Part shown: positions 9,382 to 63,125 of the stretch, piece by piece
Position numbering within the stretch: position 1 is the first letter of the stretch
Layout of the letters: every line of letters starts with the position of its first letter
Origin: Alloalcanivorax mobilis
GTDB taxonomy: Bacteria; Pseudomonadota; Gammaproteobacteria; Pseudomonadales; Alcanivoracaceae
Reading direction: 5' to 3'
Assembly: GCF_002864685.1 (NCBI RefSeq)
Contig: NZ_NMQZ01000006.1
Span: forward strand, 1-64,000
DNA: 64,000 nt
The notes under the pieces: model-generated
Told to the model about the DNA's origin: nothing
Database searches by the model: none
The model's input: the letters and a program-made list of their open reading frames with translations, nothing else
Translations under genes and position numbers: made by a program

Positions 9382-10092
9382 ATGATTACTGATTACGAGG
9401 CCTTCAAGATCGATCTGCGCCTCTCCAAGGAAGACATCTGCAAGGAGCTGTTCCGCCAGAACCGCGACCACATCCGCATTAAAAAAGAAGCGGTGGCGGT
9501 CAGGAATCTGGCGAAGCTGATCGACTCCACCCTGCGTCTGGCCAACTCCAAGGGCTTTCACGCCATGTCGCTGCGCGACCTGTGCGCCGACTCGGGGCTG
9601 AGCATGGGCGGGCTGTACGCCTACATCAAAAATAAAGGTGACTTGCTCAACCTGATCCAGAGCCATGGTTTCATGCTCACCCGGCGCACCCTGCTCAGCT
9701 ACACCGAACGGGTGCAAGACCCCCGCGAAAAGCTGCTTACGGCTATCCAGGCGCACCTGTATCTCAGTGAGCTGATGCGCGCCTGGTTTTACTTCTCCTA
9801 CATGGAAACCAAAAGTCTTCCCGAAAAAGAGCGCCTTGACGCCATCGCCATCGAACGGGAAGTGGAAGGCATCTTCCGGGACATCATCGACCAGGGCGTC
9901 GCCGCCGGCGTGTTCCGCGACGTCAACGCCCGGCTCACCGCTTCGCTCACCAAAGCCATGTTGCAAGACTGGTACCTCAAGCGCGGCAAATACCGGGAAC
10001 AGAAGGTCTGTGTGAATCAGTACGCGGAGGTGGTGCGGGATGTTCTCGAGGGGTATTTGTTGTCGGAAAAAATTGAAAACGGAGAAAGTTAA
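9382..10092 (+). CDS. TetR-family transcriptional regulator
   Basis: A 236-residue regulator with the TetR helix-turn-helix displaced to about residues 50-100 (LRDLCADSGLSMGGLYAYIK), after an unusually long N-terminal extension rich in charged residues. The C-terminal domain would bind an effector, possibly an acyl-CoA produced by the ligase at 3.0 kb. It is the last gene of the acyl-CoA synthetase and LIV importer cluster and is convergent with the flavin reductase gene. Its final codons and stop lie in the left arm of a heptad inverted repeat. Target operator inferred as the palindromes before the ligase. Confidence 0.85.
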   Translation: MITDYEAFKIDLRLSKEDICKELFRQNRDHIRIKKEAVAVRNLAKLIDSTLRLANSKGFHAMSLRDLCADSGLSMGGLYAYIKNKGDLLNLIQSHGFMLTRRTLLSYTERVQDPREKLLTAIQAHLYLSELMRAWFYFSYMETKSLPEKERLDAIAIEREVEGIFRDIIDQGVAAGVFRDVNARLTASLTKAMLQDWYLKRGKYREQKVCVNQYAEVVRDVLEGYLLSEKIENGES

Positions 10093-10175
10093 AAGTTGAA
10101 AGTTAAAGGCGCGGGCACGGCCGTACCGCCGGCAAGGAAATCACCGCGTTTCAACTTTTAACTTTTAACCTTTCA
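10085..10175. repeat. Heptad-armed inverted repeat (AAGTTRA family), element B
   Basis: Left arm 10085-10108 is AAAGTTA AAAGTTG AAAGTTA, right arm 10149-10175 is the complementary AACTTTT series. The 40-bp loop contains the conserved core CGCGGGCACGGCCGT. It lies between two convergent genes and supplies the stop codon of the tetR gene on one side and of the flavin reductase gene on the other. Confidence 0.8.
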
Positions 10176-10810: not shown

Positions 10811-10940
10811 GCTACAAGCTTCAGGCCGCAAGCTACAAGCTACAAAAACACCTCCAGAAGGGCCTGGCCCGCTTTGCCGGGCCGCGATCCTTTTCTGGCT
10901 TGCAGCTTGCAGCTTGCAGCTTGCAGCTTGCAGCTTGCAG
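10811..10940. repeat. Heptad-armed inverted repeat (GCTTGCA family), element C
   Basis: The right arm (10898-10939) is exactly six tandem copies of GCTTGCA. The left arm (10811-10845) is five complementary 7-mers such as GCTACAA and GCTTCAG. The loop of about 50 bp contains its own small GC palindrome. It fills the space between the flavin reductase start and the alkB stop. Confidence 0.8.
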
Positions 10941-10947
10941 CGCCGCC

Positions 10948-13417: not shown

Positions 13418-13503
13418 TGTGGGAGCGGTCCTTGACCGCGAACCGAGCCGAAGGCGAGGCAAGACCTGGCAAGGCCCATTCGCGGTCAAGGACCGCTCCC
13501 ACA
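13418..13503. repeat. REP-like palindrome
   Basis: Perfect 25-nt inverted repeat: TGTGGGAGCGGTCCTTGACC begins the left arm (13418-13442), and the complement occupies 13479-13503, with a 36-bp loop. The TGTGGGAGCGG opening is the sequence type seen in extragenic palindromes of Pseudomonas and relatives. It lies in the 317-bp gene-free stretch 13366-13682. The same stretch also holds a lone copy of the heptad-element loop core (about 13601-13632) and three to four TGTATCC-type heptads (13647-13674). Confidence 0.8.
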
Positions 13504-14265: not shown

Positions 14266-14428
14266 GGCTTCAAGCTGCAAGCGGCAAGCTACAAGTAAGG
14301 ATTGCGCGGCGGCGGACGCCGTGCCGGCGACGACCAGTTCAAAGTTGAAAGTTAAAAGTTCAAAGGTCGTGACCGAGAGGCTCTGCCGCGGCCTGTGGCC
14401 GTCTCGGTTTGCCGCTTGCAGCTTGCAG
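14266..14428. repeat. Composite heptad element D (GCTTGCA arms enclosing AAGTTRA units)
   Basis: Outer left arm 14266-14295 carries CAAGCTR-type 7-mers and outer right arm 14414-14428 carries two GCTTGCA units. Inside lies one AAGTTRA-type arm (14337-14366) without its partner. Two unit families are therefore nested in one spot, between the divergent chaC-like gene and pdxH. Confidence 0.65.
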
Positions 14429-14487
14429 CCCGGAACGCGATTTCCGCTACAATCCCCCACACCAAGAACCAACGGACAAGGGCTCCC

Positions 14488-28570: not shown

Positions 28571-28664
28571 GAAAGTTAAAAGTTGAAAGTTAAAAGGCGC
28601 GAGCACGGCCGTGCGGTCGGCACGGCTTCTGCCGCGTTTCAACTTTTAACCTTTAACTTTCAAC
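28571..28664. repeat. Heptad-armed inverted repeat (AAGTTRA family), element E
   Basis: Left arm 28571-28596 (AAAGTTA AAAGTTG AAAGTTA type), right arm 28637-28664 (AACTTTT, AACCTTT, AACTTTC). The loop carries the conserved core in the form CGCGAGCACGGCCGTGC. It lies inside the urt operon between urtD and urtE, and the last codons and stop of urtD lie in its right arm. Confidence 0.8.
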
Positions 28665-50174: not shown

Positions 50175-51491
50175 ATGTCCAGCACTACGGTGAAGGCCAC
50201 CCCTTTGAGTTCGATTTTCAAGCCGCTGCTGGCGCCGGCTCTGATTGTCGTATCCCTGGCCTTCTGGTGGGCCAGCCGGCCGTTGCCGGAGCCACCGCCA
50301 ATGCTCGATCAGGCCCTGATGCGCCTGACCGGCAACACCGAATTCCACACCCTGGATGAGACCCCGGAGCCGCTGCCCTGGGAACATTACACGATTGCCC
50401 GTGGCGACGTGCTCGCCAACCTTTGGAACGATCAGTGGCAGCTGCCGCGCGAGACCCTCTATCACCTGCTCGCCAACGCCGAAAAGGGCCAGATGCTGGC
50501 GCGCCTGCGCCCCGGGCAGCACCTGGAATGGCAGGCCGACAGCGAAGGCCGGTTGCTGAACCTGCGCGTCTGGCTTAACGAAGGTGAGGGCTATCAGTGG
50601 CACCTGGATGGCGACGCCATCAGCGGCGGGCCGCTCAACCTGAGCCGCACCCTCCATGAGGTACAGATCGCCGGGCGCATCGACACCAGCCTGGCCGCCG
50701 CCCTGGCCGGCGACCCGTCGCTGGGCGGCAGCGCCGACAGCATCGCGCGGCAGGTGGCGGAACTGCTGCCACTGACCAAGAAAGCCCGCCGTGGCGACCG
50801 TTTCTCGGTGATGGTGCAAGTGGAGCGGCTCGGCGATCACGCCGAAGCCTATTCCGCCAAACTGATGGGCTTTGACTACGAAGGCGCCAAGATCCAGGTG
50901 GCCGCCGCCCGCTTCGACGACGACCGTTTTTATACCCCCAGCGGCGAAAGCCTGCTGCCCAGCTTCTGGCGCTATCCGTTCGAGCAGAGCTACCGGATCA
51001 GCTCCAACTTCAACCCGCGTCGCCTGCATCCGATCACCGGCCGGGTCAGCCCGCATCTGGGCACCGACTTTGCCATGCCGGTGGGATCGCCGGTGGAAGC
51101 GCCCGCCGACGGCGTGGTCAAACAGGTGGTGCACCATGCGCTGGCCGGCAATTACGTGGTGATCGACCACGGCGATGGCTACCAGACCCGTTACCTGCAC
51201 CTGAGCCGCATCAAGGTGCGCCCCGGCGACACCGTCCACCAGGGCCAGGTGTTGGCCTACAGCGGCAACACCGGCCGCAGCACCGGCCCGCACCTGCACT
51301 ACGAACTGCGCATGAACGGCCGCCCGGTCAACGCCATGGCGGTGTCCCTGCCCACCAAGGGCAAACTGCAAAGCGACGAGCTCAAGCGCTTCCAAAGCCG
51401 CTACGCCGGTTACTTCAAACTGGACCGCGACGACCAGCAAGCCGGCACCGCCGTGGCTCAGCAGGGTGGTTCGGATAAGGGTGGGGTTTGA
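50175..51491 (+). CDS. M23-family murein endopeptidase (MepM-like)
   Basis: A 438-residue envelope protein anchored by one N-terminal membrane helix (LLAPALIVVSLAFWWASRPL). An OapA/LysM-like region follows (WEHYTIARGDVLANLWNDQW). The C-terminal LytM zinc peptidase has ligands His294 and Asp298 in PHLGTDFAM and His373/His375 in GPHLHYEL. It should cut peptidoglycan cross-links during growth. Its 3' side is a heptad repeat. A plausible promoter lies at 50095-50125 in the gap after the MFS gene. Confidence 0.92.
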   Translation: MSSTTVKATPLSSIFKPLLAPALIVVSLAFWWASRPLPEPPPMLDQALMRLTGNTEFHTLDETPEPLPWEHYTIARGDVLANLWNDQWQLPRETLYHLLANAEKGQMLARLRPGQHLEWQADSEGRLLNLRVWLNEGEGYQWHLDGDAISGGPLNLSRTLHEVQIAGRIDTSLAAALAGDPSLGGSADSIARQVAELLPLTKKARRGDRFSVMVQVERLGDHAEAYSAKLMGFDYEGAKIQVAAARFDDDRFYTPSGESLLPSFWRYPFEQSYRISSNFNPRRLHPITGRVSPHLGTDFAMPVGSPVEAPADGVVKQVVHHALAGNYVVIDHGDGYQTRYLHLSRIKVRPGDTVHQGQVLAYSGNTGRSTGPHLHYELRMNGRPVNAMAVSLPTKGKLQSDELKRFQSRYAGYFKLDRDDQQAGTAVAQQGGSDKGGV

Positions 51492-51496
51492 GGGTA

Positions 51497-51648
51497 GGCG
51501 TCTGACGCTGGACGCCGGACGCTAAAATCAAAACCCGGGTTTGCCAGCGTTGCGGATTTGCATCGCCGCATTGCGAAGCCGCAACCCGGTTCAGTTAAGG
51601 TGTTTAAAAGCGTCCAGCGTCCAGCGTCCAGCGTCAGGCGCTCAGCGC
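51497..51648. repeat. Heptad-armed inverted repeat (GCGTCCA family), element F
   Basis: Left arm 51497-51523 is GACGCTG, GACGCCG, GACGCTA type; right arm 51610-51644 is three GCGTCCA units plus GCGTCAG and GCGCTCA. The loop includes AAAACCCGG and its partial return. It lies between convergent genes. The same unit family, also with an AAAACCCGG in the loop, recurs at 62.5 kb. Confidence 0.8.
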
Positions 51649-58506: not shown

Positions 58507-58759
58507 CGTTAAAAGTTAAAAGTTAAAACGCGGGTGCGGCGCGGAGATGACTGATCGGTGGTGGGGCGCGCTTGAGCATTAAAGTGCGCCGCCGCCCACT
58601 TCAGCGCGTTTTCAAACCGTGGATTACCCGGTAGGCCCGTAAGCGAGTTTCCAACTTTGTGGTAGAGGCGGCGCTCGACCGGCGTTCAAACGCGGTGTTG
58701 GCGGTTCCGCGACCGGGCCACCTCCGGCGCGTTACAACTTTTAACTTTCAACCTTCAAC
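58507..58759. repeat. Heptad-armed inverted repeat (AAGTTRA family), element G, long loop
   Basis: Left arm 58507-58530 is AAAAGTT repeated three times; right arm 58734-58759 is AACTTTT, AACTTTC, AACCTTC. The loop of about 200 bp is longer than in the other copies and contains AACGCGG near both ends. The right arm reaches into the last codons of the GNAT-like gene. It fills the 255-bp gap between convergent genes, in which I see no other feature. Confidence 0.75.
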
Positions 58760-62054: not shown

Positions 62055-62498
62055 ATGAATCTCTGGATCGACGCCGACGCCTGCCCCGCGGTGATCCGCG
62101 AGGTGCTGTTCCGCGCCGCCACCCGGCGCGGCATCGACACCACCCTGGTGGCCAACCACTTTATTCGCACGCCGCGCTCGCCGCACATTCGCGCGGTGCA
62201 GGTGGCGGCCGGTTTTGATCAGGCCGACGACTACATCGCCGAGCAGGTGCAACCCGGCGATCTGGTGATCACCGGCGACGTTCCGCTCGCCGCCCGGGTG
62301 GTGGACAGCGGTGGCACCGCGCTCAATCCCCGTGGCACCCTCTACGACACCGAAACCATTCGCGAGCACCTTGGCCGCCGCGATTTCATGGAGGAGCTGC
62401 GTTCCACCGGCGTACAGACCGGTGGGCCCGCTTCGCTGAGTAAAAGCGACGTGCAGACTTTCGCCAATGCGTTGGATCGGTTTCTGGCTCGACGCTAG
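62055..62498 (+). CDS. yaiI: YaiI/YqxD-family protein (UPF0178)
   Basis: A 147-residue protein of the UPF0178 family, with a PIN/NYN-like acidic core: IDADACPAVIREVLFRAA, then DDYIAEQVQPGDLVITGDVPLA and ALNPRGTLYDTETI. The conserved aspartates resemble a nuclease site, but activity is not established. It starts 19 bp after hisF and may be cotranscribed. The last residues and stop are encoded in the first heptad of element H. Confidence 0.93.
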   Translation: MNLWIDADACPAVIREVLFRAATRRGIDTTLVANHFIRTPRSPHIRAVQVAAGFDQADDYIAEQVQPGDLVITGDVPLAARVVDSGGTALNPRGTLYDTETIREHLGRRDFMEELRSTGVQTGGPASLSKSDVQTFANALDRFLARR

Positions 62499-62685
62499 GC
62501 GCCGGACGCCGGACGCCGGACGCCGGACGCCGGACGCCAGACGCCAGACGCCAGACGCTAAGTCAAAACCCGGTTCCGCGAGCTTTGCGGCTACGCATCG
62601 CGGATAGGGTGCCCACGCACCGGGCAGACCAGATGTTTTAAGCGTCCGGCGTCCGGCGTCCAGCGTCCAGCGTCCAGCGCGCAGC
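62491..62685. repeat. Heptad-armed inverted repeat (GCGTCCA family), element H
   Basis: The left arm (62491-62560) is ten consecutive 7-mers: GACGCTA, GGCGCCG, four GACGCCG, three GACGCCA and GACGCTA. The right arm (62642-62685) is GCGTCCG and GCGTCCA units. The loop contains AAAACCCGG and a GCGTGGG/CCCACGC-type stretch. It is the longest array in the window, between yaiI and arfB, and includes the yaiI stop codon. Confidence 0.85.
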
Positions 62686-62705
62686 ACCCAAACAAGGATA
62701 ATCCC

Positions 62706-63125
62706 ATGCTCCGACTATCAAACACCGTGACCATCCCCGATGCCGAGATCGAGTGGCAGGCGATTCGCGCTCAGGGGGCGGGCGGGCAGAACGTTAATAA
62801 AGTCGCTTCGGCGATTCATCTGCGTTTCGATATCGCCGCGTCGTCGTTGCCGGATTTCTATAAGGAGCGGCTGCTGGCGTATTCGGATCGGCGCATCACC
62901 GGCGAGGGCGTGGTGGTGATCAAGGCACAGCGCTTCCGCACCCAGGAAAAGAACCTGGACGATGCTCTGGCGCGCCTTAAGGCGCTGATCCAGGACGCCA
63001 CCGTGGTGCACAAATCCCGCACCCCGACCCGCCCCACCAAGGCCGCGAAACGCAGGCGCGTGGACAGCAAGACCAAGCGTGGGGGTATCAAAGCACTAAG
63101 AGGAAAGGTGAAAGGCGATGACTAG
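62706..63125 (+). CDS. arfB: Alternative ribosome-rescue factor ArfB (YaeJ)
   Basis: A 139-residue peptidyl-tRNA hydrolase that rescues stalled ribosomes. The GGQ loop lies in IRAQGAGGQNVNKVASAIHL, and the basic C-terminal tail that enters the empty mRNA channel is visible (RPTKAAKRRRVDSKTKRGG). Both parts match ArfB rather than RF1/RF2. Its stop is overlapped by eight bases by the next gene. Confidence 0.96.
   Translation: MLRLSNTVTIPDAEIEWQAIRAQGAGGQNVNKVASAIHLRFDIAASSLPDFYKERLLAYSDRRITGEGVVVIKAQRFRTQEKNLDDALARLKALIQDATVVHKSRTPTRPTKAAKRRRVDSKTKRGGIKALRGKVKGDD

Follow-up and report, generated by a model that had tools for sequence, protein, structure and literature searches.

Element H lies towards the right end of the 64-kb window, by which we mean the whole stretch of Alloalcanivorax mobilis DNA analysed here, and fills most of the gap between two genes. 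The upstream gene (62055–62498, plus strand) encodes a UPF0178 protein which, going by its amino acid sequence, we take to be YaiI-like; orthologues are present in all 13 genomes of the genus. The downstream neighbour (62706–63125, plus strand) is presumably arfB-like, its protein sequence being that of a GGQ-containing, release-factor-like protein.

The left arm of H (62491–62560, plus strand) consists of ten heptads in register: GACGCTA, GGCGCCG, four copies of GACGCCG, three of GACGCCA and a closing GACGCTA. These are the runs of four and then three identical units that the initial annotation had picked out. The TAG stop codon of the yaiI-like gene (62496–62498) sits inside the first heptad, the two overlapping in the 62491–62498 region. 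A core of 83 nt follows (62559–62641), starting with TAAGTCAAAACCCG and ending with ATGTTTTAA, which was placed by its similarity among TTGCGGCTACGCA-type cores (the K2 group). The right arm (62642–62688, minus strand) has a strict part at 62642–62674 and degenerate outer units; as the reverse complement, from outside inwards, the strict part reads GACGCTG twice, GACGCCG twice and GACGC.

At this site 11 of the 13 genus genomes have no heptad element, and their gaps differ in sequence. At the corresponding site in genome G005, the left arm changes from GACGCYR units at its outer end to CACGC-type units further in, and the right arm is of CACGC type. The C-terminal residues of the A. mobilis YaiI-like protein deviate from those of relatives that lack H.

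Heptad families in the window and across the genus

H shares the window with further heptad elements. Element F (51490–51645) has GACGCYR heptads, as in H, and a core whose start is similar to that of H. The AAAGTTR family is represented by element A (100–269), by pairs at 10085–10173 and 28572–28664 (element E), and by element G (58508–58759), at whose site G004, G006 and G009 have GATNCAG heptads and G003 and G005 have no heptad array. Element C (10811–10941) belongs to the CAAGCYR family, and its right arm (10898–10941) is made of six identical GCTTGCA copies, as first described. A composite at 14267–14430 has CAAGCYR arms enclosing an AAAGTTR array. Searching the window against Rfam at the gathering threshold returned a single match, a tRNA.

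Are these heptads a product of chance? In 463,019 bases of the A. mobilis genome, 38 arrays with a period of 7 were found, against 6 for eight other periods combined. The three-unit GACGCYR pattern GACGCYRGACGCYRGACGC has 312 plus 286, or 598, matches in the 4.10-Mb genome, these counts overlapping so that one array gives several matches, and its backwards control has 0 matches in all 13 genus genomes. Given the excess of period 7 and the 598 matches against none for the control, the heptads of H are not accidental. Elsewhere in the genus, GACGCYRGACGCYRGACGC has 491 matches in G012 and 100 in G005; each of the ten remaining genomes has between 0 and 12. Further families identified were AAAGTTR, CAAGCYR, CAGGATN and CACGCNN. 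The backwards control of the AAAGTYR pattern also matched in five genomes (in A. mobilis, 84 matches against 89), and this pattern is therefore not direction-specific there.

Elements can also be grouped by their cores, similar cores uniting 28, 23 and 16 elements. A GACGCYR core typically has AAACCC...GGGTTT as its borders and a palindrome inside. The K2 group comprises 15 GACGCYR-armed elements and one CACGC-armed element in A. mobilis, with one such pair in G005. Of 152 pairs, 143 have two arms of one heptad family, orthologues from G004 and G009 being counted apart unless their cores were identical. The nine mixed pairs combine AAAGT with CAAGC in eight cases and GACGC with CACGC in one, and the AAAGT/CAAGC pairs inspected (14267–14430 in the window, and L199/L215) are nested composites. 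Mixed CAAGCYR/AAAGTTR pairs resembling nested composites also occur at loci L197, L217, L222, L223 and L251. Two elements were obtained from each of G010 and G008 by paired-arm searches for GATNCAG and were left out of the analysis, and the three loci obtained from the GACGCYR-rich G012 were left unscored.

Can both arms switch family jointly? The same core family is found with GACGCYR or CACGCNN arms, including at the H site (A. mobilis versus G005), and the window-G site has AAAGTTR arms in A. mobilis and GATNCAG arms in three relatives. An activity laying heptads on either side of a palindromic core, for example a templated polymerase, would explain a joint switch, which we nevertheless hold to be very improbable. 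The five families have a rough common layout, N-A-N-G-N-Y-R, which was spotted post hoc and fits two of them imperfectly. Where the family changes at one site or core, both arms may have been replaced, or the insertions may have been separate events.

Heptad pairs also occur on a 70-kb viral contig in IMG/VR (IMGVR_UViG_3300036851_000385; L284, L286 and L287), which carries at least five GACGCCA arm pairs facing their complement. These pairs have a single unit variant in both arms and short cores.

Whole-unit changes within an arm

Runs of one variant had initially been read as recent expansion, unit by unit. Taken alone, the 4+3 grouping in the left arm of H is a weak sign of this, being obtained by simple arithmetic in 2 of 35 possible orders. 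A larger sample was provided by 54 GACGCYR elements, of which 38 come from A. mobilis (21 from 835,517 bases and 17 through a strict paired pattern) and 16 from G005, where 16 of 19 loci yielded a scorable pair. A pair needed at least four scored units to be included, and a filter for repeated cores removed none. Neighbouring units are identical in 175 of 316 cases, against 138.6 expected from shuffles of unit order within arms and a maximum of 158 in 10,000 shuffles. AAAGT arms have a weaker excess (44/96 versus 39.3, P 0.008). Identical units do not clump in CAGGA arms (8/36 versus 9.3) or CAAGC arms (14/31 versus 12.4), and homogeneity within an arm is therefore not general. Single arms may be strikingly regular. 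That of L180 is made of two-unit blocks (by variable dinucleotide, TG AA TG AA TG AA TA TA), and the left arm of L154 (G005:C6:362231-362375) has 20 identical GACGCTG units in an array of 145 nt, opposite a right arm of CA CA CG.

The closest comparison is that of G004 with G009, whose identity is 95.8% across the stretches examined. It yielded alignments of twelve orthologous elements (11 and the window-G site); for 9 of 20 loci of G004, the G009 sequence compared contained no orthologue. Three of the 12 differ by exactly 7 nt, and in the other nine the unit number is unchanged. The difference lies in the right arm in L201/L237, where the unit number of the left arm is constant, and again in the right arm at the window-G site, where the left arms are identical. 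At this last site the G009 arms match perfectly, both reading TTC-TGC-TAC in the same order, and the G004 right arm is changed and longer. In L198/L250 the difference is in the left arm; the right arm is not comparable, since the sequences diverge after its first 10 nt, near the end of the G004 contig. Orthologous unit differences with a comparable and unchanged opposite arm therefore number only two. As to the clean empty sites expected of a MITE, one element found only in G009 (L219) comes with roughly 50 nt of additional DNA that is not part of the element, so that insertion and deletion look alike there.

Between A. mobilis and G005, 19 loci were tried, of which 17 did not have both flanks in the A. 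mobilis sequence compared (three of those had one). In L189/L159, with flanks 86.5 and 87.5% identical, the left arm has 5 versus 2 scored units; the right arm has 3 versus 2, all CG, and here it is a base change in unit four that makes the difference. In L175/L154 the arm lengths change in opposite directions, the left arm being CG TT TT versus 20 TG units (3 versus 20) and the right arm having 7 versus 3 units; the cores of this pair differ, and it is possibly not one insertion.

Whole-unit differences between species are seen in the AAAGT and GATNCAG families as well. As in slippage-type tandem repeats (SSR/VNTR), length thus changes by whole units between relatives, in this case between species. 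The initial annotation had proposed counting units across orthologous loci of several strains; in the species pair G004 and G009, copy number does differ at three of 12 sites but stays the same at nine. Whole-unit expansion in the GACGCYR family is supported by its clumping, by the 7-nt differences and by the 20-unit arm.

Draft assemblies can miscount long arrays. Are the unit counts and runs merely artefacts of assembly? The A. mobilis genome is in 92 contigs, the 20-unit array nears the length of a short read, and one of the compared arms sits at a contig end. However, arrays in the window typically measure 17–59 nt and likely fall inside one read, the clumping and the unit differences concern short arrays, and the flanks align well. 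We regard an origin in assembly as most improbable.

Unit variants and register in partner arms

The initial annotation went further and proposed that the opposite arm keeps complementary variants and that, through templated exchange across the hairpin, the two arms evolve jointly. Neither H nor C bears out the first of these statements. The right arm of H has no complement of GACGCCA, its GACGCTG is absent from the left arm, and only GACGCCG is common to both. The left arm of C (three GCTACAA, GCTTCAG and GCCGCAA) faces a right arm that reverse-complements to GCTGCAA, so that GCTACAA stands opposite GCTGCAA.

Coupling was assessed by swapping right arms among elements and scoring composition, inner register, outer register and best shift, with the addition, for GACGCYR, of pairing with and without G-U. 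The tests covered 54 GACGCYR, 46 AAAGT, 31 CAGGA and 15 CAAGC elements, G004/G009 orthologues in the last three families being counted apart unless their cores were identical. In the 54 GACGCYR elements, the arms agree in inner register at 40 of 157 positions, against 40.05 with swapped arms, and there is no excess in composition (P 0.24), outer register (P 0.23) or best shift (P 0.31). Their arm lengths are uncorrelated (Spearman 0.13, P 0.36). The AAAGT, CAGGA and CAAGC families have no excess agreement between arms on any measure. These comparisons show that unit variants and register are uncoupled between partner arms in four families, and that length is uncoupled in the GACGCYR family. 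Both arms share a heptad family but not unit variants.

What does this mean for an exchange of sequence between arms, by templated repair or strand switching across the hairpin, that would produce concerted evolution? Three observations are in its favour: the common heptad family in most pairs, the perfect match of the two G009 arms at the window-G site, and an inverted core. The 18-nt core of a GATNCAG element (L209/L240) is inverted between G004 and G009, with 14 of 18 matches in the inverted orientation and 7 in the forward one, and 0 of 20,000 shuffles reach 14. This inversion, found at one of the 12 orthologous sites, suggests that the arms can occasionally interact. The sharing of a family, however, is explained as well by the founding of elements as inverted pairs. 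Moreover, variants, register and (in GACGCYR) length are uncoupled, unit gains or losses are not mirrored at any orthologous site where both arms are comparable, and 20 TG units face CA CA CG in one G005 element. At the unit level templated exchange is largely refuted, and it has very little chance of being the correct explanation. The lack of coupling indicates that the complementary arms of a hairpin can retain a common unit family even as their unit numbers and variants diverge independently, a pattern that speaks against concerted evolution by way of the hairpin.

The arms could instead be held by selection for an RNA stem rather than by copying. Each arm would change by slippage, units that break pairing would be removed, and the pentamer and the Y-R dinucleotide would be kept. 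Consistent with such selection, H and L189 fold strongly (z of -9.2 and -9.7, respectively, the former against shuffled sequence), and 369 of 424 units have Y-R as their variable dinucleotide (248/287 in A. mobilis and 121/137 in G005). The units at the array edges point the same way: the position immediately outside the strict array is often occupied by a near-heptad, with a mean of 3.13 of 5 matches, against 2.20 just inside and a background of 1.48. However, variable positions pair, with G-U allowed, in 218 of 314 cases (0.694), no better than with swapped arms (0.703), and selection therefore acts at most on the pentamer. The pentamer is itself already demanded by the definition of an element, and common descent of the units yields the same picture. 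The Y-R bias could accordingly stem from selection or from common descent, and we consider selection for the stem a possible but somewhat doubtful cause.

Genomic position, a proposed explanation and related systems

Among the 54 GACGCYR elements, 36 lie in gaps between codirectional genes, 15 between convergent and 3 between divergent genes, as judged from heuristic ORFs. A stop codon falls between -16 and +19 nt from the array edge in 56 of 66 cases, a count from the same ORF heuristic, made without a control; the elements are usually directly behind a stop codon. This position, the strong folding of two elements and the many similar cores give them a likeness to REP/BIME hairpins at mRNA 3' ends.

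We favour an explanation in which H is one member of a large non-coding palindromic population, each member having two inverted arrays of 7-bp units around a core. Units would be gained and lost by replication slippage inside each arm, aided by the repeats and the hairpin. An element would arise, or be copied, in the form of an inverted pair, which would give its arms a common heptad family, and the arms would then drift apart. The tolerant Y-R dinucleotide next to the fixed pentamer would keep the RNA stem foldable without any matching of the arms, and the transcribed element would act as REP/BIME-type hairpins do at 3' ends or between cistrons. Taken jointly, these propositions (palindromic non-coding elements, uncoupled arms, slippage in each arm, founding as inverted pairs and a REP/BIME-like hairpin) are in our judgement quite likely to be right.

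Might the heptads instead be binding sites for a repeat-reading protein or transposase, with unit number following binding? Several heptad families coexist, and outer ends favour the same phase, the outer pentamers at 108 arm ends being GGCGC in 26, AACGC in 15 and AGCGC in 9 cases. However, no candidate protein was found. No mobilising enzyme emerged either: Y1 transposase (Y1_Tnp) genes occur in all 13 genomes (48 matched loci), and none of the 30 loci read has a GACGC, AAAGT, CAAGC or CAGGA array alongside, the sole heptad matches there being two of CACGC type with 2 units each. Only three of the 30 come from A. mobilis, and the test of a transposase link is therefore weak. We consider binding sites an unlikely basis for the arrays.

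The Alloalcanivorax elements resemble REP, BIME and REPIN sequences (GTAG and CGTC families) in several respects. Both are palindromes, often opposed close together and present in many copies (PMC3733652, PMC3116915), both are found mainly between codirectional or convergent genes, and both involve RNA folding (PMC3733652). The Alloalcanivorax elements consist likewise of short palindromes in inverted pairs with many copies, but their outer arms are tandem heptads, and the Y1 (RAYT) genes at the loci read are not flanked by them.

The closest known system is that of the inverted heptamer pairs in Xanthomonas. The GGGAATC heptamers are 7-nt tandem units, 89–93% intergenic and nearer to the upstream neighbour gene, which form 70 inverted pairs in Xcc and 75 in Xac with lengths that differ between related species (PMC4692102). 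Tandem 7-nt units in inverted pairs at many loci, with length differences between species, are thus common to both genera. In Xanthomonas, however, 83% of repeats keep their place in a second species (PMC4692102), whereas H is found in 2 of 13 species genomes. The unit sequence and the G-quadruplex property also differ, the Alloalcanivorax consensus units having no run of three G. Alloalcanivorax differs further in its several coexisting families, its arms around palindromic cores and the measured independence of those arms. Inverted heptad pairs therefore extend beyond Xanthomonas. Among the matches listed in a literature search, which covered few subscription papers, none deals with heptad-armed elements of Alcanivorax or Alloalcanivorax. 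With many inverted heptad arrays, several families and close species, Alloalcanivorax lends itself to study as a natural experiment in paired tandem arrays.

Tandem heptads of other kinds are described in two further groups. Geobacter metallireducens has tandem heptanucleotides at many loci, in four or five copies and with a proposed regulatory role; like the Alloalcanivorax arrays, one class is mostly paired, but the units differ (PMC2700814). In Beggiatoaceae, TAACTGA heptamers are likewise tandem and intergenic and present at many loci; they are, however, with one exception, direct repeats, and they lie mostly just upstream of start codons (PMC4679880).

The window itself holds a palindrome of another kind. 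At 13418–13503, a 25-nt perfect inverted repeat, TGTGGGAGCGGTCCTTGACCGCGAA, forms a REP-like doublet without heptads.
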